DNA of 64,000 nucleotides, taken from Paraneptunicella aestuarii (lineage in GTDB: Bacteria; Pseudomonadota; Gammaproteobacteria; Enterobacterales; Alteromonadaceae). The notes beneath the pieces were generated by a model. It was not told the origin of the DNA and did not search any database. It saw only the letters and a program-made list of their open reading frames with translations. The stretch lies in NCBI RefSeq assembly GCF_019900845.1, contig NZ_CP074570.1:1736001-1800000 (forward strand). Direction: 5' to 3'. Of the stretch, positions 2,978 through 20,648 are shown in pieces (within the stretch, counting starts at the first letter, position 1; each line of letters opens with the position of its first letter). The position numbers and the translations under genes were made by a program.

Positions 2978-5133
2978 GTCGCGCTCTCACGGGAGCGCGT
3001 GGATTGAAACACAACCTGGTTAGAGTATCGTCACGCCAAGTTCGGGTCGCGCTCTCACGGGAGCGCGTGGATTGAAACACGAATTATAAAATACGTGATG
3101 ATGGTTGTTATTGTCGCGCTCTCACGGGAGCGCGTGGATTGAAACACATGAACAGCCGGAGAGCCGAAAACCTTTGAAATCGCGCTCTCACGGGAGCGCG
3201 TGGATTGAAACACTATCAATGCGAAAGCTCCATCACGGTAATATTGTCGCGCTCTCACGGGAGCGCGTGGATTGAAACTCAAAGTTAATCGCAGCTCTAT
3301 ATACTGCTTTACGTCGCGCTCTCACGGGAGCGCGTGGATTGAAACCGTCATGGACAGAGTACGCAAAAGTGCTTGTGCAGTCGCGCTCTCACGGGAGCGC
3401 GTGGATTGAAACAAAAGCTCCTGTGTTTTGTTTGTATATCTCCCGTGTCGCGCTCTCACGGGAGCGCGTGGATTGAAACCGCTACTGTGCGTGCCATCTG
3501 AAATGATGCTGCGTCGCGCTCTCACGGGAGCGCGTGGATTGAAACCTTGCCGAGAGTAGTTATCAACGGGAATTTAATGTCGCGCTCTCACGGGAGCGCG
3601 TGGATTGAAACCCTATTGTGGTGTACAGCCGGAATGTTTGGGGTGTCGCGCTCTCACGGGAGCGCGTGGATTGAAACGAGGTTCAAATCCATATTGGTGG
3701 CAACCTTGCGAGTCGCGCTCTCACGGGAGCGCGTGGATTGAAACGGTTGAAGCCGATGCAACCGTTAATCAAGTGGTAAGTCGCGCTCTCACGGGAGCGC
3801 GTGGATTGAAACACTTAAGTTAACTTATTGTGTACAATTGGGTAATGTCGCGCTCTCACGGGAGCGCGTGGATTGAAACCAAATTTGTCATCAGTTCGTA
3901 CTCGTAATTCTTGCGTCGCGCTCTCACGGGAGCGCGTGGATTGAAACGTCACGCCTCGAACGAGTTTCTTTTTTTTAAACCGTCGCGCTCTCACGGGAGC
4001 GCGTGGATTGAAACGAAACCGGGGTATCCGGGGGCGAATGTTATGGGGTCGCGCTCTCACGGGAGCGCGTGGATTGAAACAGATGCTGCAACAGTTGATC
4101 GATATTCTGCTGGGTCGCGCTCTCACGGGAGCGCGTGGATTGAAACATAGAACTATCAAGTGTTTGCTGTGGCGTATCAGTCGCGCTCTCACGGGAGCGC
4201 GTGGATTGAAACACGCGGCTGCACTGTAAATTGCTGTACAAATCCAAGTCGCGCTCTCACGGGAGCGCGTGGATTGAAACAAAGGGCTTGTCTTGTTTGA
4301 CGTTAGCATCCACGTCGCGCTCTCACGGGAGCGCGTGGATTGAAACACACGAAACTTTGTACTCAAGTTTGCGGCAGCACGTCGCGCTCTCACGGGAGCG
4401 CGTGGATTGAAACGCACTGGTTAGCGCAGGGATGCTTGCATTGTACGTCGCGCTCTCACGGGAGCGCGTGGATTGAAACACCCGCCTGTATTGATACATA
4501 GGCACCTAAAAAAGTCGCGCTCTCACGGGAGCGCGTGGATTGAAACTATTCGTGTCGGCGATTACGTTTGGTTTGTATTGTCGCGCTCTCACGGGAGCGC
4601 GTGGATTGAAACAATGTTTATAATTGTGCCTAAATATAGGCACATTGTCGCGCTCTCACGGGAGCGCGTGGATTGAAACATATGCAACTCTTTCACCACC
4701 CCTGGTGATCCTGGTCGCGCTCTCACGGGAGCGCGTGGATTGAAACAGCGCCTCCCGGCGTAATGATTTTTGTGATAGCGTCGCGCTCTCACGGGAGCGC
4801 GTGGATTGAAACTGCAAAATGGTGGATAGATAACCGAGAGGCAGAGTCGCGCTCTCACGGGAGCGCGTGGATTGAAACTGACATCTTGGGAAGGCGTTTT
4901 GATTGATGCATGTCGCGCTCTCACGGGAGCGCGTGGATTGAAACCTTGATGATGGTTGGTACTGAGCGCATTTTATTGGTCGCGCTCTCACGGGAGCGCG
5001 TGGATTGAAACATAATCACCTGTCACTCGTGGACTTTTGCCCGGGTCGCGCTCTCACGGGAGCGCGTGGATTGAAACAAATTCTACAAGGAACGGTGAAT
5101 GACAACATTAGTCGCGCTCTCACGGGAGCGCGT

Positions 5134-5366
5134 TTCTGTTGGTCATGGCGCACGTGATGCGCCATCCAGTTTTCGCGGAGATTAAACATCGGCGTCATAC
5201 TGAGCTTGTCTCAGTATCTGTTTGACATTATTGGAGATTCCGAAATGAATTCGGAATGACGAGGGCGTGGGGCTGTCAGACTTCCACATGCATTGCTCTC
5301 GGTGGATTGCTGTTGGATGGATACCGGATAACGCTTCGCGCTTCCGGTATGACGGCAGTTTTGAGA
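5134..5366. mobile_element. REP-cluster element, copy 1, inside a CRISPR repeat
   Basis: A 233-bp insertion splits the repeat that begins at 5111. The dinucleotide GT (repeat positions 22-23) occurs on both sides, consistent with a 2-bp target duplication. The element holds four hairpins, each starting with a GTCAT-like end. Hairpins 1 (about 5142-5169) and 2 (5194-5220, stem ACTGAG/CTCAGT) read forward. Hairpins 3 (about 5232-5260, stem ATTCCGAA/TTCGGAAT) and 4 (about 5315-5353, stem ATACCGGA/TCCGGTAT) read in reverse. It has no coding capacity. Confidence 0.8.
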
Positions 5367-5434
5367 GTGGATTGAAACCCTTCCGTTGGAAAAAGCAATC
5401 GATGAGATGAGGTCGCGCTCTCACGGGAGTGCGT

Positions 5435-5667
5435 TTCTGTTGGTCATGGCGCACGTGATGCGCCATCCAGTTTTCGCGGAGATTAAACATCGGCGTCATA
5501 CTGAGCTTGTCTCAGTATCTGTTTGACATTATTGGAGATTCCGAAATGAATTCGGAATGACGAGGGCGTGGGGCTGTCAGACTTCCACATGCATTGCTCT
5601 CGGTGGATTGCTGTTGGATGGATACCGGATAACGCTTCGCGCTTCCGGTATGACGGCAGTTTTGAGA
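5435..5667. mobile_element. REP-cluster element, copy 2, inside a CRISPR repeat
   Basis: Essentially identical to the copy at 5134-5366, at the same position in the next repeat, flanked by the repeat halves at 5412-5434 and 5668-5679. It belongs to the 301-bp tandem unit. The left repeat half carries the stem mutation shared with copy 3. Confidence 0.8.
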
Positions 5668-5735
5668 GTGGATTGAAACCCTTCCGTTGGAAAAAGCAAT
5701 CGATGAGATGAGGTCGCGCTCTCACGGGAGTGCGT

Positions 5736-5968
5736 TTCTGTTGGTCATGGCGCACGTGATGCGCCATCCAGTTTTCGCGGAGATTAAACATCGGCGTCAT
5801 ACTGAGCTTGTCTCAGTATCTGTTTGACATTATTGGAGATTCCGAAATGAATTCGGAATGACGAGGGCGTGGGGCTGTCAGACTTCCAAATGCATTGCTC
5901 TCGGTGGATTGCTGTTGGATGGATACCGGACAACGCTTCGCGCTTCCAGTATGACGGCAGTTTTGAGA
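5736..5968. mobile_element. REP-cluster element, copy 3, inside a CRISPR repeat
   Basis: Same length and insertion position as the two preceding copies, between repeat halves 5713-5735 and 5969-5980. It differs by a few substitutions: aaatgc for acatgc near 5887, ggacaacg for ggataacg near 5927, and ccagtatg for ccggtatg near 5947. The last one weakens hairpin 4. It is followed by a different spacer. Confidence 0.8.
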
Positions 5969-6309
5969 GTGGATTGAAACACAGTGCTACCGAAATACTC
6001 AAGAGTAGGGAATGTCGCGCTCTTACGGGAGCGCGTGGATTGAAACGTCATTTGAGATTGTGGAGTTGACAGCACCCGCCCGTCGCGCTCTCACGGGAGC
6101 GCTTTTTCTGAATGGCAGCAGTACCGCCGCTCTTACCTTATTTAAAAAATTGAAATAAAAATTTGAACATCAGCAGTAAAAACTTGTAACGTCTACCTTT
6201 CCAAAACTTTACCTTTTGTTTTATTATTCTCGAACATCCACCGAACACATGGTGTGCAAGCTGCTACATAACGGCTTGTTACCCGAAGAAATAAAACACA
6301 GGACACACA

Positions 6310-7397: not shown

Positions 7398-7425
7398 AAT
7401 GTCAAACCTCAAGCTTTTGTTAGTT

Positions 7426-7658
7426 AACCTCAGCTGCGCATAAGAAAGCGTTTTGAGTTGGTTATTTTCAGCGACTTCTTCGTTAAGTTTACTTGCAATA
7501 GTCTCGCTATTGGCGCGTAAACCCGCCTCGAGTTCACTAAAAAGTAACCTTCCTCAAAATATTCCAGTGGCATATCGGGGCTCATATGACCAATAACAGT
7601 TTGAAATATATTGAGTTTCATATTGCTATTGTTCGCTTTCTTATGCGCAGCTGAGGTT
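7426..7658. mobile_element. MITE-like element with 25-bp perfect terminal inverted repeats
   Basis: The left arm begins AACCTCAGCTGCGCATAAGA (7426 to 7450). Its exact reverse complement forms the right arm, ending GCGCAGCTGAGGTT (7634 to 7658). The two arms enclose 183 bp. Both ends are bordered by AGTT (7422-7425 and 7659-7662), which fits a 4-bp target-site duplication. There is no transposase; the only frame inside (63 codons on the minus strand, 7430-7621) runs into one arm and looks fortuitous. The element sits immediately upstream of the XRE gene and could supply its promoter or separate it from one. Confidence 0.65.
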
Positions 7659-7903
7659 AGTTATATTTCAAAAAATTAAAAAAACGGCATCCCTGCAAAA
7701 CCAAGCTGGAAGTCCTTTTTATCCCCTGTGTTGTAGTGTTGCTGTCCTTTCGGGATAAAAAATTAATACTAAAGAAAATAAATATCAAGTTAAAATTCAT
7801 TAAATATATTAAAAAATATGAAATTTAGTTCAAAAATATTTGTGTGATTGCAAAGAAACATTATACTGAGGCAACTAACCAGGCTGTGATTTCGGGTGAG
7901 GGA

Positions 7904-10245: not shown

Positions 10246-10522
10246 GTCATGGCGCACTTGATGCGCCATCCAGCCTTTCATGGAGATTAAACATCGGCGT
10301 CATACTGAGCTTGTCTCAGTATCTGTTTGATAATATTGAAGATTCAGAAATTAATTCGGAATGGCGAGGGCGTGGAGCTGCCAGACTTGCACAAGCATTT
10401 CGCTCAAGTGGATTGCTGTTAAATGGATACCGGACAGTTCTTGCATGGCGAAGAGGGCGCGTTTCCGGTATGACAGAGAAGGTGGGCTCTTGCATGGCAA
10501 AGGTGGCGCTTCCGGTATAACG
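10246..10522. repeat. REP-cluster element, dispersed copy
   Basis: A diverged copy of the element found inside array 1, here in intergenic DNA. The same order is visible: GTCATGGCGCA/TGCGCCATCCAG hairpin, then GTCATACTGAG/CTCAGTATC, then a weakened third hairpin near 10340-10365, then ATACCGGA/TCCGGTAT spread over about 60 bp. The last arm is repeated, ending near 10522. The left border lies in a short run of repeated tcaaa/tcaaac words (10200-10245). Confidence 0.75.
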
Positions 10523-10879: not shown

Positions 10880-11545
10880 ATGAATGAACAAAAAGATTAT
10901 GAAATAGCAATGGAAATAGCGGGGCCATTCGCTTTATGGTCTCGTCCTGATACGGGTTCAACGCCCACAAGTTACCCCATTCCAACCTGGTCGGCGGCAA
11001 AAGGTATTTTTGAACGTATAGCTTTTCTTAATGACGGGCGAGCCTGGATTAACCCTACTAAGGTTGAGATCTGTAAGCCTTCTGGTTCTCCTGGTCGGGA
11101 TGTGTTTTACCAGAAGTACACCACGAATTACCGTGGCCCTCTTAAAGAAAAGGGTAAGGTTAATTTTCAATATGTAACGTTAGCAATAAGCCAGGTGTGT
11201 TACAGGTTATATGCCAATATAGAAAATGGCAGTGGGAAGCCCATGCGCTATGGCAATAATCCTCGCCATCATCTTCAAGCTATGTTTCAGCGCCGTCTCA
11301 GTAAAGGCCAATGCCATGCTACGCCCTGTTTAGGTATTAGTGAATTTACGCCAAGTTATTGGGGGCCAATTCGGGATGAAACGTCAGAATCGGTTACCAA
11401 AACCGAGGTCGACACCAGTATTAATCTGAATTTGGTGAGTGTGACTAAGCAGGTTTTTAGTAAAGCTGTTTCAGGACAATACCAGCCGGAATTTCAAACT
11501 GGGGACAGAGCTTGGATTAAGAAAGGGAGCTTTGAATATGATTAA
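10880..11545 (+). CDS. cas5c: Cas5c (Cas5d), type I-C crRNA-processing endonuclease
   Basis: This 221-residue RAMP-fold protein has the family N-terminus (IAGPFALWSRPDTGSTPTSY then PIPTWSAAKGIFERIAF). In type I-C systems, Cas5 takes over the Cas6 role. It cuts the repeat RNA at the base of the hairpin, leaving an 11-nt 5' handle, and then stays in the Cascade complex. Both arrays here keep the same 11-nt tail, as expected if one Cas5c processes both. It is the first gene of the cas operon, with AGGG upstream. Its end overlaps cas8c by 8 bp. No cas6 gene is present in the window. Confidence 0.93.
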   Translation: MNEQKDYEIAMEIAGPFALWSRPDTGSTPTSYPIPTWSAAKGIFERIAFLNDGRAWINPTKVEICKPSGSPGRDVFYQKYTTNYRGPLKEKGKVNFQYVTLAISQVCYRLYANIENGSGKPMRYGNNPRHHLQAMFQRRLSKGQCHATPCLGISEFTPSYWGPIRDETSESVTKTEVDTSINLNLVSVTKQVFSKAVSGQYQPEFQTGDRAWIKKGSFEYD

Positions 11546-13724
11546 TGAGCTTTATTCCATCTTATTGGGCTATGAGGAAACTGGGGTGTCGCTTGATCCC
11601 ATACATGGCGATATTCAAGAACCGGGAAAGGGAACCAGTTTCCGAGTTTCGTTGGACGAACAAGGCGTTGTAACCGATGCTCAATTGTTATCGAAAGATG
11701 ATTTTTCTGATATTTGGACAATTGGTAACGGCAATAAAAATCAGTTTCCCTGTGCCAAGTTGATTTTTCCTACCAGACCGGGCGGAAATGAGCAGTATGA
11801 GGCATGGAAGAAAGACAATAAAAATGCTTCTGAGGCTGAGCTTCTGGATTTTATTGGATCGTTACGCGCTGAAACTACTCTTGAATTTCCAGAGCTTGAA
11901 GTGGCCTGGCCGAATTATCGTAAGAAAGTGGCAGAACGGGCTGTACAGCTTGAGTCATTGAAAGGGGGAGATGCGTCTGCGGTTTTTGAATTATTTGAAC
12001 GCTATTTGTCTGCCTCTGAAAATGGCTTGTCGATTTTAAAAGGGGTTGATGAGATGTTGTGGCAACGTTGCCAGCAAAACCCTGACAAGGATCTGCTTAA
12101 AGCCGCGGCGGCTGTAATGTTTGGCGAGGGGCTTCAAAAGGGGCTTTTTCCTGACGGTAAGCGTATTACGTTAATTCTTGATTTTAAACCGGATGAGGAT
12201 GCGCCATATTTCGCCAGTTCAAGGCGTTATGTTCCAGATATTACTAAGGTACTGAATAAAAGTGCCAAGGGAAAAACACGCACTGGTTTTTGTCCGATAA
12301 AGTCTGAAAAAGTCCCTTTGTTAGATGACAAGTTTCCAAAAGTGAAGCTACCAGTAATTGGCAATACTAACCTGTATTCCCGGTATGACGGTTCAGGAAA
12401 CCTTTCAGTTGTGAGATATGAGGCAGCCCGATCGGATGCTTATTCTATCAGTGCTGAAATTGCCGAACGACTTGGTGCTGTGTTAACCAGGTTAACGGAT
12501 GACAATAAATTTCAGAATACATGGGATTCTATTCCTTCAGAGGCTTCAGGGCCGGATTTGTTGTTAGCCTTTTGTCGGGAATTTGAGGATGCCCAAACAA
12601 CATTGTTTTTAACTGGCGACATTAATGCTGCGGCAGAACAAAAACTGCTTAAAAACAAGGATGAGAAAGGTTATCTCAGAAAATGTACCCGGTTATTTGA
12701 GTTCATTAAGAAAAATTCCCTTAAGCCAAATCCCTTGGTGGATATTGTCGTTATTAGAAAGATTAATGACGGTAACCAAAAAGTCGCTTATTCAACAAGC
12801 CAATCTATTGAATTGCTGATGGAATCGGCAGAGCAGTGGCATTCAGGTTGTGAGAATATCCCTATGATTCAATTACCTGTAAAGATTGATAAGGATGTGA
12901 AAACGCTTCACCCCTGGACAGTGGCACCCAAGTATTTTGTGATGCATTCAGATCAGGCATTTATACGAGGTGGAGAGAGCAGTGTTAAGGTTCAGGCTAT
13001 TCCTTTTGCGGATGTGATGAGGTTGTTTATTACATCCATTACTCCACCCTCAGAATTAACTTCAAATATTCTTTCCAAGCTGGTAACTCAATTTGCACCT
13101 TTGTTGGAGCGTGTTGCCCAATCAAGAACTCAACGTTCTTTAGGTAAAAGGGCACTAGTGCCTGTTGACTATAAGAAGAATAAAGAGGCATTGGTTGCAG
13201 TCGCTATGCTTGGATTAATTCTATTTAAACGCGGGCGTTATAAGGAGCGCTATATGGAAGATCTTGCTTTTAAATTAGGCCAGCTATTGTCGGCCGCAGA
13301 CGAGTTGCATATTGGTTATTGTTATGGGAGGCGTAGTGGCCAAATTCCAGGTACTTTAATCGGCAATCAGTGTTATGGAATGGCTGTGCAATCTCCAATC
13401 AAAGCATTGGCTTTAATGGCAAATCGTATTAAGCCTTATTCTCAGTGGGCTAAAGAAACGATTGCCAAGTTGAAAAAAATCCCTGCTAAAAGTGAAGACC
13501 AAACTGAAAATGAAAAACTCATTAATAAGGGGCTTTGGGCTTATCTTTGGTATTCAAAAAACCTGGAACAATTAACTGAGAAGTTGAGAGATTGGAATAC
13601 GGCGAATAACAAGGTTGACGATATGTTTAAAGCTGAACTTATGTTGGGCTATTTAAACGGCAGACCTTTTACAAACACTCAAATAGAGAAATCAGAAACA
13701 CATAACACGAAGGATGGAGAATAA
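11538..13724 (+). CDS. cas8c: Cas8c (Csd1), large subunit of type I-C Cascade
   Basis: About 728 residues, within or slightly above the usual Csd1 size. The protein begins MINELYSILLGYEETG, followed by beta-rich sequence and a segment typical of Csd1 (NTNLYSRYDGSGNLSVVRYE). It recognises the PAM and helps load target DNA. I choose the ATG at 11538, nine bases after a GGGAG ribosome site, over an in-frame TTG two codons earlier. The gene overlaps cas5c by 8 bp and is followed by cas7c after 2 bp. The C-terminal quarter is helical and Lys-rich, which may correspond to an internal Cas11-like translation product known for type I-C; that is inference. Confidence 0.9.
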   Translation: MINELYSILLGYEETGVSLDPIHGDIQEPGKGTSFRVSLDEQGVVTDAQLLSKDDFSDIWTIGNGNKNQFPCAKLIFPTRPGGNEQYEAWKKDNKNASEAELLDFIGSLRAETTLEFPELEVAWPNYRKKVAERAVQLESLKGGDASAVFELFERYLSASENGLSILKGVDEMLWQRCQQNPDKDLLKAAAAVMFGEGLQKGLFPDGKRITLILDFKPDEDAPYFASSRRYVPDITKVLNKSAKGKTRTGFCPIKSEKVPLLDDKFPKVKLPVIGNTNLYSRYDGSGNLSVVRYEAARSDAYSISAEIAERLGAVLTRLTDDNKFQNTWDSIPSEASGPDLLLAFCREFEDAQTTLFLTGDINAAAEQKLLKNKDEKGYLRKCTRLFEFIKKNSLKPNPLVDIVVIRKINDGNQKVAYSTSQSIELLMESAEQWHSGCENIPMIQLPVKIDKDVKTLHPWTVAPKYFVMHSDQAFIRGGESSVKVQAIPFADVMRLFITSITPPSELTSNILSKLVTQFAPLLERVAQSRTQRSLGKRALVPVDYKKNKEALVAVAMLGLILFKRGRYKERYMEDLAFKLGQLLSAADELHIGYCYGRRSGQIPGTLIGNQCYGMAVQSPIKALALMANRIKPYSQWAKETIAKLKKIPAKSEDQTENEKLINKGLWAYLWYSKNLEQLTEKLRDWNTANNKVDDMFKAELMLGYLNGRPFTNTQIEKSETHNTKDGE

Positions 13725-13726
13725 TC

Positions 13727-14608
13727 ATGAATGCACCTTTTAACCGCCAAGTTGGATTGATTGTGTTGGACGTCACTATGTCGAACCCTAATGGTGATCC
13801 GGATATGGATTCTGAACCAAGAACTCGAGATTTGGATCAACGAGGCATGATTTCTCCGGTTTCTTTTAAACGCAAATTTCGTGATCTGGTTGCTGAGGAT
13901 TCTCCTGTTTTTGAAGAAGCGTTGAGCCATTTGAAATTGGGTAAGAGCGGTAACGAATTTGGTATTTTGGAGCAACGAGGCAGAGATCGCGACGCTATTA
14001 AAAAATTGGATAGAGACGCGTTTGTAAAGTCTTATTGGGATGCTCGTTTGTTTGGTAATACCTTTCTTGAGTCCATGAAAGACAGTGATGCCAAAGACAG
14101 AAATGTTGACCACTTTATTAGCACTGGTGCATTGCAGATTGGCGTGGGGTTGTCGGTTGCGCCTGTTGATGTTGTTAGAATGACAACCACCAACAAATCA
14201 GGTGTTCAAGAAGGCAAAGACCGAGGTATGGCACCTCTAGGGTTTAAAGTGGTGCAACATGGTGTTTATTGCATTCCTATTTATGTGAACCCGAGCGTGG
14301 CAAAGAAAACAGGTGCTACTCAGGAAGATTTGGATTTATTCAAGTTTATGTTGCCGTATGTTTATCAGCACACTACGTCGGCAATTCGCCCTCAAATATC
14401 TGTACTTCATGCCTGGTTTGCAGAGCATAAAAATGTATTAGGTTCATGCCCTGAACATTTGTTGATTGATGCGCTGACACCGAAATTAAAAGAAGGTGTT
14501 GAAACCCCGGTAAGTCTGAGTGATTACCATGTGCCAACATTGGCAGATGTGGATCCTGCAATTATTGAGCGCTTCGCTAAAGTAGAAGATTTGAACAATA
14601 ACATCTAA
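13727..14608 (+). CDS. cas7: Cas7c (Csd2), backbone subunit of type I-C Cascade
   Basis: This 293-residue protein has the Csd2/Cas7 hallmark start: VGLIVLDVTMSNPNGDPDMD, then RTRDLDQRGMISPVSFKRKF. It continues with DARLFGNTF and a glycine-rich segment (STGALQIGVGLSVAPVDVVR). Several copies wrap the crRNA spacer in Cascade. Length is normal. The stop codon overlaps the start of cas3 by one base (TAATG). It is the most conserved of the effector genes here. Confidence 0.93.
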   Translation: MNAPFNRQVGLIVLDVTMSNPNGDPDMDSEPRTRDLDQRGMISPVSFKRKFRDLVAEDSPVFEEALSHLKLGKSGNEFGILEQRGRDRDAIKKLDRDAFVKSYWDARLFGNTFLESMKDSDAKDRNVDHFISTGALQIGVGLSVAPVDVVRMTTTNKSGVQEGKDRGMAPLGFKVVQHGVYCIPIYVNPSVAKKTGATQEDLDLFKFMLPYVYQHTTSAIRPQISVLHAWFAEHKNVLGSCPEHLLIDALTPKLKEGVETPVSLSDYHVPTLADVDPAIIERFAKVEDLNNNI

Positions 14609-17004
14609 TGTTAGCGGCGCATTCTCCACCAAAAGAGAGGCTCGATTCCGAGCCTCATTCTTATTCGGATCATATTGCTGAGGCCATTCAATATGGCCTT
14701 CCTTTAATTAAGGATATGCTCCGATTTTCACACTTCGATTCAGAGAACATCACGGCATTATGCGACACCTTGAAAGCAGCTTATATGCTGCATGATATGG
14801 GAAAACTTGATGAACTGAATCAACCTGTATTGAAAGGTGAAGTGAATGAACGATTGCAAGTAGATCACATTGATGCAGGTATTGCCATTGCGAATGAAAT
14901 CAATAATTTGCTTTTGGCGTGGTTGATTAGAGGCCATCATGCCCCCGGTTTACCAAGCTATGATGAAGAGTGTGGTGTTGCTGAATTACTAATTGAAGAG
15001 TGCCCTGAACTCAATTTGGATGATGAACCTCACTTAAGAGGTGCGAGGCATAATAGAACTTACGAACATTCAAAAGACGTTGATTTACGTAAACATGTCA
15101 AAGTTATTTCGAGAACAGACAATCAATTAGCAAATTATAAACAACTGCAAATTCAAGAGTGTGGTGAATACCCTCAAACAGCGTTAGATCTGCCAGAATC
15201 CTGTTTAACTACCCGATTGATGTTGAGTTGCCTGGTGGATGCAGACCACTTAAGCGCAGCCTGTTATGAGTCCGGCGAGGCTTTTCCTATCTATACTCAA
15301 GCTGATAATCGTTGGGAAGAACGGCTTCAGGCACTTGATAAGTATGTGAGTTCGTTAGCGGCTAAATCTAAAGAGCCCGATAGCGAGAGGAATACAATTC
15401 GAGGTGATTTTTATCGTTGTTGCGTCGAAAGCCCTTTAGTTGATGAAAATCTGGTTTCGTGTTCTGCGCCTGTTGGATTAGGAAAAACCACATCTGTGAT
15501 GGCATTTTTGCTTAGACAGGCATTGGCTCATGGTTTACGCCGGATTATTGTTATTGCGCCATTTACCAATGTGATTAACCAAACCGTAAAGACGTTAAAA
15601 AAGTCGATTGTTCTGGAAGGGGAAGATCCTGATCAGGTTGTGGTTGCTCACCATCATAAAGCGGATTTTTCTGATAAGTCGTTGCGCCAATTATCTGCAT
15701 TGTGGAAAGCGCCTATCGTGGTGACTACTGCGGTTCAGTTCTTTGAGACTTTGGCAAGTGCTAATCCGAGCCAGTTGAGAAAGCTTAATAGCGTTCCGGG
15801 TTCGGGAATTTTTGTTGATGAATCTCATGCTTGTTTACCGCCTCAGTTTTTACGAGTTGCATGGAAATGGTTAAGAGAACTTTCGGATGATTGGGGATGC
15901 AGAATAGTGCTTTCTTCGGGTTCTATGGTGGAATTTTGGGACTCGCAGTATCTGGTTGATGACAAGCACCGAAAGAAGATCCCTGAGTTAATTGATAACG
16001 GCATACTTGCACGGGCTCTTGAGCTGGAAAAACGCAGAGTTACTTTTGAGACTAAGGATGCTCCTATGCCTTTGTCTTCTTTGGTTGAAGCCATCATTGA
16101 TAAGGGCACAGAGATTAATAAGAAGGATATTCATCAACCTTGTGTTTTGGTCATTATGAATACGGTTCAGTCGGCGGCTGTCGTTGCTGACGCAATAGCG
16201 AAAGGTGTAGGGCAGGATACCAAGCAACAATCGTTAGATGAAATGCTGGTTTTACATTTATCAACGGCGTTGGATTCTGAGGATCGTGACATCATTCTCA
16301 ATGAAGTTGAGTGTCGTCAAAAGAACGGAAGCGAATGGCAAGAACAAACCTGGTATTTAGTGGCTACGAGCTGTGTTGAGGCTGGGGTTGATCTTGATTT
16401 TGCTGTTGGTTTTCGAGAGCGCGCTTCAGTAACAAGTTTTTTGCAGGTTGCAGGAAGAATTAATCGTCATGGTTTTAGGAATGAAGCCTGGCTTTTTGAT
16501 TTTGTCACCGTTCCTGATAAGGATGGCTTAAATCATCATCCGGGATTTAAAGAAGCACAGAAGGTTTTATGTCAACTTTGGGATGAGCTATGTGCTGTAG
16601 GCAATGATCTGTCAAAGTTATCTACTCGGGCGATAACGCGTGAGTTGAACCATGGCTTGATTGAAAAAAGTGAAGCGCTTTTGTTAAGTGATAATGATAG
16701 AAATTTCCAAACTGTAATGGATGATTTCAAAGTGATTAACACAGACACTCGAATTGTTATTGTCGATAGTGAATTAGCAAACAAAATAGAGTGCGGAGTG
16801 CCTGTTAGTTGGCGTGAAGTACAGAAAAAATCTGTACAAATGTGGGCTAATAAGATCTCGAAATTTAATGGATTTTTGTCTCCAATTAATTCAAAAGACG
16901 AACTTTACTATTGGAATTCAAAGTATGACGGGAAGTTTTTAGGCTTTATGGCGGGTGTTATAGAAACTAAAGATTTCTTTGAAATAGATGGTGGTGTGCT
17001 CTAA
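14608..17004 (+). CDS. cas3: Cas3, HD nuclease-helicase
   Basis: This 798-residue protein combines an N-terminal HD nuclease with an SF2 helicase. HD motifs visible are H62-D63 (LHDMGK), H87, H110-H111 (RGHH) and D211 (LVDAD). Helicase motifs are Walker A APVGLGKTT (residues 287-295), DESH at 404-407 in place of DEAH, the ATSCVEAGVDLDF block (586-598) and motif VI QVAGRINRHG (613-622). Both halves therefore appear intact. Cas3 is recruited by Cascade to nick, unwind and degrade target DNA. Its place in the operon is odd: type I-C operons usually begin with cas3, whereas here it sits between cas7 and cas4, joined to both without gaps. Confidence 0.93.
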   Translation: MLAAHSPPKERLDSEPHSYSDHIAEAIQYGLPLIKDMLRFSHFDSENITALCDTLKAAYMLHDMGKLDELNQPVLKGEVNERLQVDHIDAGIAIANEINNLLLAWLIRGHHAPGLPSYDEECGVAELLIEECPELNLDDEPHLRGARHNRTYEHSKDVDLRKHVKVISRTDNQLANYKQLQIQECGEYPQTALDLPESCLTTRLMLSCLVDADHLSAACYESGEAFPIYTQADNRWEERLQALDKYVSSLAAKSKEPDSERNTIRGDFYRCCVESPLVDENLVSCSAPVGLGKTTSVMAFLLRQALAHGLRRIIVIAPFTNVINQTVKTLKKSIVLEGEDPDQVVVAHHHKADFSDKSLRQLSALWKAPIVVTTAVQFFETLASANPSQLRKLNSVPGSGIFVDESHACLPPQFLRVAWKWLRELSDDWGCRIVLSSGSMVEFWDSQYLVDDKHRKKIPELIDNGILARALELEKRRVTFETKDAPMPLSSLVEAIIDKGTEINKKDIHQPCVLVIMNTVQSAAVVADAIAKGVGQDTKQQSLDEMLVLHLSTALDSEDRDIILNEVECRQKNGSEWQEQTWYLVATSCVEAGVDLDFAVGFRERASVTSFLQVAGRINRHGFRNEAWLFDFVTVPDKDGLNHHPGFKEAQKVLCQLWDELCAVGNDLSKLSTRAITRELNHGLIEKSEALLLSDNDRNFQTVMDDFKVINTDTRIVIVDSELANKIECGVPVSWREVQKKSVQMWANKISKFNGFLSPINSKDELYYWNSKYDGKFLGFMAGVIETKDFFEIDGGVL

Positions 17005-17658
17005 ATGTCAACAGATCACTTAATCCCCCTTTCCGCCTTACAGCATTATGCTTTTTGCCCGCGTCAATGTGCGTTAATCCACATTGAGCGGGTGTGGGCC
17101 GACAACTGGCTGACTGCGCAGGGCAATAAGCTGCATAAGCGGGTGGACAGCGGCGAGCCCGAGGTGCGCAACGGTGTGCGTATGGAGCGGGCGGTGATGG
17201 TGAGTGCTGAGCAGTTGGGATTAACGGGCAAGCTGGATTTGGTGGAAAAGGACATGCAAACAGGAGCGTTAACGCCGGTGGAATACAAGCGCGGTAAGGC
17301 GAAGCCGGGGAACTGGGACAAGGTTCAGCTTTGTGCTCAGGCGTTGTGTTTGGAGGAAATGACCGGGCAGCACATTAGCGACGGTTATTTGTGGTATTGG
17401 GAAACTCGCCGCCGTGAGCCTGTAGAGTTTGATCAGTCGCTACGTTCTCAAACCCTTGCTGTTATCAATGAGGTGAAAGCCTTGTTTTCCCAACGCATCC
17501 TTCCCAAACCTGTGTACGAAAAGCGTTGTAATGCCTGCTCTTTGTATGATCAATGTGAGCCGAAATTAGTCGAAAATGATAACAGCGCAGTGTATGTGAA
17601 GGCGCTCTTTTCTGTGGATAAAGAAGTTTCTGTGGATAAGGAAGCATCTGGCTTATGA
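17005..17658 (+). CDS. cas4: Cas4, Fe-S exonuclease for spacer acquisition
   Basis: A 217-residue RecB-like nuclease. It has the N-terminal Cys (C18 in FCPRQC), catalytic-type residues in GKLDLVEK and VEYKRGKAKP, and the C-terminal Cys cluster in KRCNACSLYDQC, which together would bind an iron-sulfur cluster. Cas4 trims prespacers and helps select correct PAMs with Cas1-Cas2. The start codon immediately follows the cas3 stop, and the stop overlaps cas1 by 4 bp (ATGA). The C-terminal tail carries a short duplication (SVDKEVSVDKEASGL). The 5' part of this gene looks clearly more GC-rich than cas3, suggesting that the adaptation and effector modules have different histories. Confidence 0.92.
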   Translation: MSTDHLIPLSALQHYAFCPRQCALIHIERVWADNWLTAQGNKLHKRVDSGEPEVRNGVRMERAVMVSAEQLGLTGKLDLVEKDMQTGALTPVEYKRGKAKPGNWDKVQLCAQALCLEEMTGQHISDGYLWYWETRRREPVEFDQSLRSQTLAVINEVKALFSQRILPKPVYEKRCNACSLYDQCEPKLVENDNSAVYVKALFSVDKEVSVDKEASGL

Positions 17659-18677
17659 AAAAATTGCAGAATGTGTTGTACCTGACGCGCGATTCACTCT
17701 ATGCCCACAAGGAAAGAGAGGCCATTGTGATCAAGGAAGAACAGAACACCTTACAGAAAATCCCGATACATTCTATTGCGGCTATTTACTGTTTTGGGCA
17801 AGCCAAGGTGTCGCCCGGTTTGATGGCGCATTGTTCAGAGAATGATGTGAATTTGGCCTGGTTCGATTTGTTTGGTCGGTTTCAGGCAAGAATACAAGGC
17901 AGGCAGTCGGGCAATGTGTTGTTACGCCGCGCTCAGTATCGTATTAGCGACAATAATCCTGTTGATATCGCGAAAAATATCATTGCTGCCAAAATTCAAA
18001 ATGGTCGCAATGTGTTACAGCGCCATATTCGTAATAATGGTGACAATGAAGAGGTTAGCCGGGTTATTGGAGCGCTGCGCTTTTCCATTGAACAGGCGGG
18101 TAATGCGAAGTCTGTTGAGCAATTGCGTGGTATTGAAGGTGAGGCTGCGGCGCAATATTTTTCAGTGTTTCAACACTTGATAAAGCCGTCATTGCAGGAT
18201 GAATTTGTGTTTAACGGGCGTAATCGCCGCCCTCCGCGTGACGCCATAAACGCCTTGTTGTCGCTGCTTTATGCGGTTATTGGGCAGGATGTGTCGGGGG
18301 CGTTAAATGCGGTTGGGCTTGATCCTCAAGTGGGCTTTTTACATGCCGATCGCCCTGGTCGAGACAGTTTGGCGCAAGATATTCTGGAAGAATTTCGTGC
18401 TTATCTGGCTGACAGAATGGCGGTGAGTTTGATCAACAAACAGCAAATCAAGGCCAGAGATTTCGAAACGGAAGCGAGTGGGGCAGTGAAGTTGAAGGAA
18501 GAGGCGCGTAAAGCCTTGTATGCGGCATGGCAACAGCGAAAACAGGAAGTGATCCTGCATCCGTTTTTGAATGAGAAGGTGGAAATTGGCCTGTTACCTC
18601 ATATTCAAGCTATGTTGTTAGCGCGGCATTTGCGTGGCGATTTGCAGCAGTACCCGCCTTTTTATATTGCTAAATAG
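17655..18677 (+). CDS. cas1: Cas1, spacer integrase
   Basis: 340 residues, normal for type I-C. Metal-site residues are recognisable: Glu in LRGIEGEAA (about E161), His in VGFLHADRPGRD (H230) and an acidic residue in LAQDILEEFRAYLAD (about D242-E245). Cas1 and Cas2 form the complex that inserts new spacers at the leader-repeat junction. Both leaders in this window share the same proximal sequence, so this Cas1 plausibly serves both arrays. The gene overlaps cas4 by 4 bp and is followed by cas2 after 7 bp. Confidence 0.95.
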   Translation: MKKLQNVLYLTRDSLYAHKEREAIVIKEEQNTLQKIPIHSIAAIYCFGQAKVSPGLMAHCSENDVNLAWFDLFGRFQARIQGRQSGNVLLRRAQYRISDNNPVDIAKNIIAAKIQNGRNVLQRHIRNNGDNEEVSRVIGALRFSIEQAGNAKSVEQLRGIEGEAAAQYFSVFQHLIKPSLQDEFVFNGRNRRPPRDAINALLSLLYAVIGQDVSGALNAVGLDPQVGFLHADRPGRDSLAQDILEEFRAYLADRMAVSLINKQQIKARDFETEASGAVKLKEEARKALYAAWQQRKQEVILHPFLNEKVEIGLLPHIQAMLLARHLRGDLQQYPPFYIAK

Positions 18678-18684
18678 GTGCGCT

Positions 18685-18978
18685 ATGTTGGTACTGATTA
18701 CTTACGATGTGAGCTTTGACACCGAGGGTGGAAAACGTCGATTACGCAATATTGCCAAGATTTGTCAGGATTACGGTATTCGTGTGCAATATTCTGTTTT
18801 TGAGTGCGACGTGACCCCGGCGCAATGGGTGGAATTAAAAGAGCAGTTGTTTGCTGCCTATGATCCAGAAGTCGACAGTTTGCGCTTTTATAAACTCGGT
18901 AAGAATGGTCAAAATAAAATTGAACATTTCGGCGCCAAAGCCAGCTTTGATGTGTTTAAAAGCCCGTTGATTATTTAG
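18685..18978 (+). CDS. cas2: Cas2, structural partner of Cas1
   Basis: 97 residues with the ferredoxin-like Cas2 start MLVLITYDVSFD (catalytic-type Asp in YDV), followed by CQDYGIRVQYSVFECDVTP. The protein bridges two Cas1 dimers in the integration complex. A longer reading with 17 extra N-terminal residues overlaps cas1 but would disrupt the first beta-strand, so I use the ATG at 18685. It is the last gene of the operon, directly followed by leader 2. Confidence 0.95.
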   Translation: MLVLITYDVSFDTEGGKRRLRNIAKICQDYGIRVQYSVFECDVTPAQWVELKEQLFAAYDPEVDSLRFYKLGKNGQNKIEHFGAKASFDVFKSPLII

Positions 18979-19172: not shown

Positions 19173-20506
19173 GTCGCGCCTCCCGCAGGCGCGTGGATTG
19201 AAACTGTCTATGTACCACCAAGCATCCCTTTTATTTTGTCGCGCCTCCCGCAGGCGCGTGGATTGAAACCAGAAGCCCGTGACGAAGTATTCAAAGTGTT
19301 CGAAGTCGCGCCTCCCGCAGGCGCGTGGATTGAAACAGCCTTTGATAAGGATAATAACGAATACCGTTATTGTCGCGCCTCCCGCAGGCGCGTGGATTGA
19401 AACAAGGCGACGAATATCGTTTACCGACAACCACCCCCGTCGCGCCTCCCGCAGGCGCGTGGATTGAAACTCGGTTGATTCCATTTCCAATTACCAATTC
19501 GTTGTCGCGCCTCCCGCAGGCGCGTGGATTGAAACTACTTTGGCCTTTTTTAGCAGGTGGTGTCATTGGGTCGCGCCTCCCGCAGGCGCGTGGATTGAAA
19601 CAGCTAACCCAAGCAAAAACGCCAGCAACACCGCCTGTCGCGCCTCCCGCAGGCGCGTGGATTGAAACTTGGGATCATAAAAAGAGAAAAAGAAGAGCCT
19701 CCGTCGCGCCTCCCGCAGGCGCGTGGATTGAAACCTTGCGAATCAAGCAATGCTCTATAGGCTAGTCGTCGCGCCTCCCGCAGGCGCGTGGATTGAAACA
19801 GAAGGGCAGGTATTCAGCCTGAAAAGTGGCATTGTCGCGCCTCCCGCAGGCGCGTGGATTGAAACTTACCGTTTTCGAGAAGGAAATCAATACCCATATG
19901 TCGCGCCTCCCGCAGGCGCGTGGATTGAAACACCGTCCCATAGTCCACCGTATCGGCATTGATGCGTCGCGCCTCCCGCAGGCGCGTGGATTGAAACAAT
20001 GACCTGTTTTGCGTGCTGTATCAAAAAAGCGTCGCGCCTCCCGCAGGCGCGTGGATTGAAACTACATCAGTTGTTGTTGTGCTCGGTATTGTTGCGTCGC
20101 GCCTCCCGCAGGCGCGTGGATTGAAACGCGTTGATGTGCGTTTACTGTAATCTTGGTCGCGTCGCGCCTCCCGCAGGCGCGTGGATTGAAACAACCGAAC
20201 CTCCGAGTTTAAAAAACTCGCCAATCTGTCGCGCCTCCCGCAGGCGCGTGGATTGAAACTCTATGTATTTATGGTATTTAGGGTTTGCGCTAAGTCGCGC
20301 CTCCCGCAGGCGCGTGGATTGAAACTAACTCATCGTAATAAACCACATCGGGCGATATGTCGCGCCTCCCGCAGGCGCGTGGATTGAAACATCTGACGCG
20401 AAATATTCGGGCGTTTGCCATCCGTCGCGCCTCCCGCAGGCGCGTGGATTGAAACTAGTCTGGCATAGATATTTCTGCAATATTGTTTGTCGCGCTCTCA
20501 CGGGAG
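19173..20506 (+). CRISPR. Type I-C CRISPR array 2 (32-nt repeat)
   Basis: Twenty complete repeats (first 19173-19204, last 20424-20455) alternate with 20 spacers of 33-35 nt. The repeat is GT, a 7-bp hairpin CGCGCCT-CCCGC-AGGCGCG, then the same 11-nt tail TGGATTGAAAC as array 1. The 21st unit (20489-20506) is not this repeat: its 18 nt match the left half of the array 1 repeat (tcgcgctctcacgggag), and the rest is lost at the junction with a REP-cluster element. The leader is on the left, next to cas2. All twenty complete repeats look identical. No spacer is shared with array 1 as far as I can see by eye. Confidence 0.98.
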
Positions 20507-20510
20507 AGCT

Positions 20511-20641
20511 ATGTCTGTTGTCATGGCACACCGGATGCGTCATCCAGTTTTCGCGGAGATTAAACATCGGCGTCATACTGAGCTTGTCTCAGTATCTTTT
20601 TGATATTATTGGAGGTTTCGAAATGAATTCGGAATGACGAG
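20511..20641. repeat. REP-cluster element, truncated copy at the end of array 2
   Basis: Follows the broken terminal repeat of array 2. Hairpins 1 (weakened, GTCATGGCACA...GCGTCATCCAG), 2 (GTCATACTGAG/CTCAGTATC) and 3 (ttcgaaatgaattcggaatgac) are in the same order as in array 1. Hairpin 4 and the right half of the repeat are missing. The left border relative to the CRISPR repeat is nearly the same as in array 1. Confidence 0.75.
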
Positions 20642-20648
20642 GTGGAGC

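Follow-up and report, generated by a model that had tools for sequence, protein, structure and literature searches.

How did one and the same insert come to split three neighboring repeats of a CRISPR array, always at the same base, and what would follow for the crRNAs of the adjacent spacers? The host genome is a single 4.91-Mb contig. The window analyzed here is a stretch of 64,000 nucleotides from it (G000:C1:1736001-1800000). Unless genome positions are indicated, coordinates refer to the window and features are on the forward strand.

Array 1 and the cas operon

CRISPR array 1 (2978..6102) is of type I-C and consists of 33-nt repeats GTCGCGCTCTCACGGGAGCGCGTGGATTGAAAC with the leader at the left. 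It comprises 37 repeats and 36 spacers; the 37 repeat starts and 36 handles belong to 33 whole repeats, three split repeats and one truncated last repeat. The split repeats are neighbors near the trailer end, and all newer repeats (2978 to 5077) are free of an insert. Downstream of the split repeats, the array continues with a whole repeat (6014..6046) that has one loop substitution. The terminal repeat (6082..6102) retains the hairpin half only and is followed by the terminator-like TTTTTCTG. The three junctions of a hairpin with TTTCTG and the terminal half-repeat in front of TTTTTCTG give four terminator-like places, compared with a mean of 1.3 (sd 1.3) in shuffled sequences. Searches of array 1 against phage sequences matched a single record (74.8%), the split-repeat unit had no match among plasmids at E 0.01, and Rfam gave no match at the gathering score within window positions 1-21500.

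The cas operon is located at 10880..18978. PADLOC identifies Cas8c (2.4e-149), Cas5c (2.1e-18) and Cas1c (1.5e-142). Cas5 and Cas7 score under the NCBIfam I-C cut-offs, and Cas8c has no match in Pfam or NCBIfam. On the basis of their sequences, operon and repeats are assigned to type I-C. Operons of this type usually begin with cas3. Here cas5c is the first gene, and the order is cas5c-cas8c-cas7-cas3-cas4-cas1-cas2. Two CI-repressor-like helix-turn-helix proteins (PF07022; 6310-6780 and 7844-8392) are encoded between array 1 and the operon. The same region contains a perfect 26-nt inverted repeat, the arms of which (7425-7450 and 7634-7659) are 183 nt apart.

Structure of the split repeats

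In unit 1, the hairpin half (5111..5132) has the canonical C at position 19. It is separated by the insert E1 (5133..5367) from the 11-nt handle half TGGATTGAAAC (5368..5378), which is followed by the first copy of spacer SA (5379..5411). E1 contains palindromes at 5145-5165, 5197-5217, 5237-5257 and 5321-5350. The hairpin half of unit 2 (5412..5433) carries the exchange C19T. Insert E2 (5434..5668) is identical to E1, and the handle half (5669..5679) precedes the second copy of SA (5680..5712), which is the sole exact duplicate among the 36 spacers of the array. Unit 3 also carries C19T in its hairpin half (5713..5734). Its insert E3 (5735..5969) differs from E1 and E2 by three substitutions (3/235 sites), and its handle half (5970..5980) is followed by another spacer, SB (5981..6013).

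The original prediction described three repeats split by one 233-bp element with GT on both sides, always at the same base. This arrangement is present, with a net insert of 235 bp between a 22-nt hairpin half and an 11-nt handle half in each unit. The flanking GT leaves three possible places for the break, namely behind position 21, 22 or 23 of the repeat. When it is set at 22/11, it coincides exactly with the border of hairpin and handle in all three units. Cas5d of Bacillus halodurans cleaves at the hairpin base and generates an 11-nt 5' handle and a 21-nt 3' handle, according to the part of the source available (PMC3890593). By analogy, the break would coincide, within the limits of the common GT, with the place where cleavage is expected. 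An RNA-guided origin or one by reverse transcription, suggested by a break at the expected Cas5c cut site, would be mere speculation.

A tandem repeat of 301 bp, composed of element and spacer, had also been proposed. Units 1 and 2 conform to it, as they differ at only one of 301 bases (site 19), and the tandem repeat is far above chance (TRF score 1712). Unit 3, on the other hand, has the same 268-nt split repeat but is followed by a different spacer. Thus, the element was indeed amplified together with a spacer, and this spacer was SA only. There are four variable sites among the three units. Given in the order of units 1/2/3, their states are C/T/T at site 19, C/C/A at site 177, T/T/C at site 219 and G/G/A at site 236. 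The exchange at site 19 replaces a G-C pair of the stem by G-U in the RNA.

A single difference per 301 bases between units 1 and 2 is difficult for short reads, and the copy number of the real genome could in principle be lower than that of the assembly. Such an artefact is very unlikely. The genome is a single contig, every unit can be distinguished from the other two, unit 3 has its own spacer, and related junctions are present at other loci.

The insert as a REP cluster of the CGTC type

Each of the four palindromes of the insert has an 8-bp stem that starts with AT. The loops comprise 5 nt in three of them and 14 nt in the fourth. The tag is CGTC in three palindromes; that of the first is GGTC in units 1-3 and TGTC in a copy at array 2 (see below). 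A CCA tail was noted at the first palindrome only. In the available excerpt of the study of CGTC-REPs (PMC3733652), these are defined by a CGTC (or TGTC, CCTC) tag by the stem, an AT-starting stem of 8-9 bp and a loop of 4-5 nt; most have 5-nt loops and a CCA tail, and the excerpt describes them without a dedicated transposase. With respect to tag, stem and loop, and dispersal, the insert fits the CGTC-REP superfamily as judged from its sequence.

Dispersal is evident from 43 genome matches of the element at E 0.001, corresponding to 21 clusters after merging at 1.5 kb. Two of the insert palindromes occur at 30 and 18 genomic places, compared with none for the reversed control patterns. Accordingly, the description of the element as a non-coding REP cluster can be retained. 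A member of the same subfamily (89%) is found within the window at 10246..10434 without CRISPR flank. The tags are CGTC-like and no Y1 transposase (PF01797) was found in the genome, in contrast to the GTAG REPs that are mobilized by RAYTs; 5 of 14 control genomes gave a match to this family. A protein-coding element was considered and dismissed: the 105-aa open reading frames are mechanical, 301 bp as the period is not divisible by 3, and indels distinguish the relatives.

Within the family, at least 7 of 147 genomes, the own one included, contain any match to the element. The others match one palindrome or an adjacent pair only. These counts are lower bounds since at most five candidates per genome were scored. 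The sole other genome of the genus has no match.

Related junctions elsewhere in the genome

Array 2 (19173-20509) follows the type I-C operon. Its repeats GTCGCGCCTCCCGCAGGCGCGTGGATTGAAAC (19173-20454) are of a different type from those of array 1, except for the last one (20489..20509), which is a hairpin half GTCGCGCTCTCACGGGAGAGC of the array 1 repeat type. Possibly this reflects a turnover of the repeat type that left the oldest repeat behind. The half-repeat is joined to an element at 20514..20642 that is 93% identical to positions 2-131 of E (~130 bp). Half-repeat and element together reach 92% over 154 positions.

A decayed relic is located on the other strand, ~4.1 kb before array 1 (G000:1734538-1734837). 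It shows the order REP, TTTTGAG, GTGGATTGAAAG, exactly 61 nt, and then GTTGTCATGG of the next REP. The interval has the same length of 61 nt in array 1. The decayed half-repeat has only 10 of 22 bases in register, which is reached by 1.5% of background positions. As this half-repeat is weak on its own, the case for the relic is based on the combination of spacing, handle and TTTTGAG. A tree built from the 5' halves separates the copies at 1.06-1.07 Mb from the CRISPR-side copies and the one at 10246 (local support 0.99), although the identity of the relic is only 76-78% to the latter group and 71-76% to the others. Beside the relic (G000:1734480-1734900), its REP has undergone a small tandem expansion with units of ~23 bp (GGAATGACGAGGAATTCGGGAGC and variants).

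Since related junctions of half-repeat and element terminate array 2 and are found in the relic, the arrangement in array 1 is not a one-off.

Arrays 3, 4 and 5 (around 37, 1492 and 4513 kb of the genome) have a third repeat type with 16, 15 and 23 handles, respectively. No inserts are present inside their repeats. Array 3 ends in a half-repeat, and ~50 nt further on there is a REP that belongs to the same broad type (score reached by 0 of 500 shuffles). The trailer of array 4 contains a weak REP (2/500 shuffles) and that of array 5 contains none (45/500 shuffles). The trailer of array 1, TTTTTCTGAATGG, was tried as a decayed element and rejected, the local score being attained by 139 of 500 shuffles. 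Arrays 3 and 4 (G000:36000-38600 and 1491600-1494400) share a near-identical leader and an upstream stretch that ends a reading frame; judging by these sequences, it looks as if an array was duplicated together with its leader. These three arrays were located through the string GTGGATTGAAA, which is matched 88 times in forward and 26 times in reverse orientation across the genome (1 and 0 for the reversed control). Apart from the relic, GTGGATTGAAA is found as an isolated occurrence at no fewer than three other places among the 100 matches listed.

Surveys of other genomes

Hairpins that lack a following handle were matched in 6 of 394 genomes of the order, at eight places. The five places outside the own genome in this survey are not within arrays. 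This survey has little power, as the whole repeat pattern occurs in one of 147 family genomes, namely the own one. A survey of type I-C loci covered 18 loci, of which the eight with at least four matching handles were assessed. These eight contain no split repeat. Two wide gaps inside arrays correspond to a point-mutated repeat (L037) and to ~400 bp between two whole repeats (L049).

Order of events and origin of the insertion

T19, which is common to units 2 and 3, is a change from the common repeat of the array. The original prediction held that the order of events can be worked out from this shared stem mutation. The sequence does yield an order, but it has to be revised: units 1 and 3 would have come first and unit 2 last. 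At its 5' side, unit 2 has T19 like unit 3, whereas the 3' sites and spacer SA are those of unit 1. Unit 2 thus looks like a recombinant of unit 3 (5' side) and unit 1 (3' side). If units 3 and 1 are crossed over anywhere from site 19 to site 177, unit 2 results exactly. A single unequal exchange of this kind explains both the third copy and the duplicated SA.

Site 219 would support the crossover if C is ancestral. C is found in the copy at 10246, the relic, the L009 copy and all three copies of L010; the array 3 trailer and two of the four L012 copies have T. At site 236, one of the three L010 copies has A. As the polarity of site 219 is not unanimous, the assignment is based on T19 versus SA. 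Other routes are about equally long, for instance one in which T19 of unit 1 reverted to C.

One insertion followed by a simple tandem duplication does not explain two adjacent units with different spacers. For the element to precede both SA and SB, it must have been transferred by conversion between neighbors or by exchange with another array, or it must have inserted a second time. In the reading we prefer, which we regard as probable, one old insertion was spread by recombination and tolerated among old spacers. A CGTC-type REP cluster with four palindromes would have inserted, probably once, at the border of hairpin and 11-nt handle of a type I-C repeat. Subsequently, the split repeat would have spread through recombination among repeats and arrays. 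The state before the last step may have been unit 1 - SA - unit 3 - SB. An unequal crossover within the element, between unit 1 (before SA) and unit 3 (before SB), would then have generated unit 2 and the second SA. Because related junctions are present in the relic and where array 2 ends, the insertion probably predates the tandem. From these observations we infer a single origin and this route of spread.

Two other origins have to be weighed. REP clusters that prefer palindromes may have hit the CRISPR hairpin repeatedly at the same base, namely in two adjacent repeats of array 1, at the end of array 2 and in the relic. REP dimers are regularly found inside palindromes in other species, as described in the excerpt of PMC3733652, and the junctions of three loci are at the same point of the repeat. 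Nevertheless, such targeting is unlikely. The junctions share their flanks (TTCTGTTG-like on the left; TTTTGAG on the right in array 1 and the relic), which fits descent, and E1 and E3 differ at only 3 of 235 sites. Furthermore, other genome copies that were inspected are not at such a site, arrays 3-5 are free of internal inserts and the Y1 transposase was not found in the genome. Copying of an insert-bearing, then leader-proximal repeat by Cas1-Cas2 during spacer acquisition would yield units 1 and 3 with SA and SB. It accounts for the element in front of two different spacers as well as for the order REP, handle, spacer, half-repeat, REP of the relic. The newer repeats of array 1 (2978-5077) have no insert, however, so that a later loss would be required, and a 268-nt repeat would be at odds with the usual ruler for repeat length. 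This origin is highly improbable.

Processing of the split units

The hairpin halves in front of the inserts are intact. When a unit is folded by itself, the hairpin of the half-repeat is formed; if unit 1 is folded in a wide context, its half-repeat pairs with that of the next unit instead. As judged from the sequence, the 3' cut site is preserved for each spacer that precedes an insert, and such a spacer should give a normal crRNA. Both copies of SA and SB, on the other hand, have their own hairpin 235 bp away from the handle. We infer that normal crRNAs of these spacers should be missing, or that the crRNAs should be cut poorly. The insert would be tolerated because it is among the oldest spacers and because the hairpin half was left in place, so that the crRNA of the preceding spacer is still cut at its 3' end. 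Since only the last four spacers are beyond the first insert, the cost of the loss should be small.

Alternatively, the last palindrome may replace the lost hairpin, closed by CTCTC/GAGAG, so that the split units still yield crRNAs. In units 1 and 2, the terminal GAGAG of the element is predicted to pair with an upstream CTCTC, and the resulting long hairpin closes against the handle. Whereas the original prediction had normal processing abolished at the split units, some residual processing is thus conceivable. The lowest pairing probability of the five closing bases is 0.95 in these units (0.99-1.0 in the wide context). Values of at least 0.9 are found at 2.3% of 1500 random genomic positions, at 4.6% of 1120 REP-cluster positions and in 40 of 1000 shuffles. 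With 0.897 in the short context, the closing pairing is less certain in unit 3, where the same bases mostly pair downstream once the context is wide. No such hairpin is predicted adjacent to the handle of the relic. The test is rough, as the canonical repeat itself scores 0.65. Additionally, this is a single post hoc test and the closing stem is far longer than the native one. The modeled hairpin of units 1 and 2 (p about 0.02-0.05) is weak and suggestive at most, and crRNA production by this route is very unlikely. A compensatory change of CGCTC/GAGCG to CTCTC/GAGAG was rejected, since the two halves come from different loci.

Similarly unlikely is a split repeat that works as an alternative repeat, with SA and SB cut by Cas5c and 268-nt repeats once regular in an older array. 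If this were true, the relic and the last part of array 2 would be remains of that older array. The split repeats look like a tolerated insertion that was later spread by recombination, rather than a new immune device, and there is no sign of a new function.

Comparison with known systems

The locus joins REPs and CRISPR repeats, two families of palindromic repeats that are usually treated apart. The case suggests that an insert that is non-coding may persist at the hairpin/handle border within CRISPR repeats, that such an insert can provide the homology for duplication of a spacer, and that its remains help to reconstruct the history of an array. Furthermore, the split units are a natural test of what Cas5c needs beside its handle.

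The matches listed from the open-access PMC literature include no report of a REP cluster inside CRISPR repeats. A close likeness is found in Xanthomonas citri. According to the excerpt available (PMC9504256), an IS element lies within a direct repeat of a CRISPR array, the repeat has the same TGGATTGAAAC end, and single spacer-repeat units are duplicated in tandem. The array of X. citri contains an IS, whereas here a non-coding REP cluster of 235 bp is present in three adjacent repeats, with junctions at two more loci. In the M. tuberculosis complex, the CRISPR (DR) region is described as a preferred site of IS6110 in the available part of PMC8912993. This likeness is at the level of the region favored by a mobile element, and IS6110 encodes a transposase while the insert of array 1 is non-coding. 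Duplication of one spacer together with its repeat through recombination or replication misalignment is known as well (PMC8047081, in excerpt). Unlike in those cases, the 235-bp insert itself would have supplied the homologous stretch for crossing over.

The insert shares the tag, AT-starting 8-bp stems, mostly 5-nt loops and the lack of a dedicated transposase with the CGTC-REPs of the excerpted PMC3733652. The likeness is at the level of the superfamily, above the four families of that study, and CRISPR appears in the excerpt as background, not as target. Thus, IS elements in CRISPR repeats and REP dimers in palindromes are known, and a REP cluster at the hairpin/handle border of neighboring repeats, with related junctions at two further loci, appears to be a new variation on this theme.
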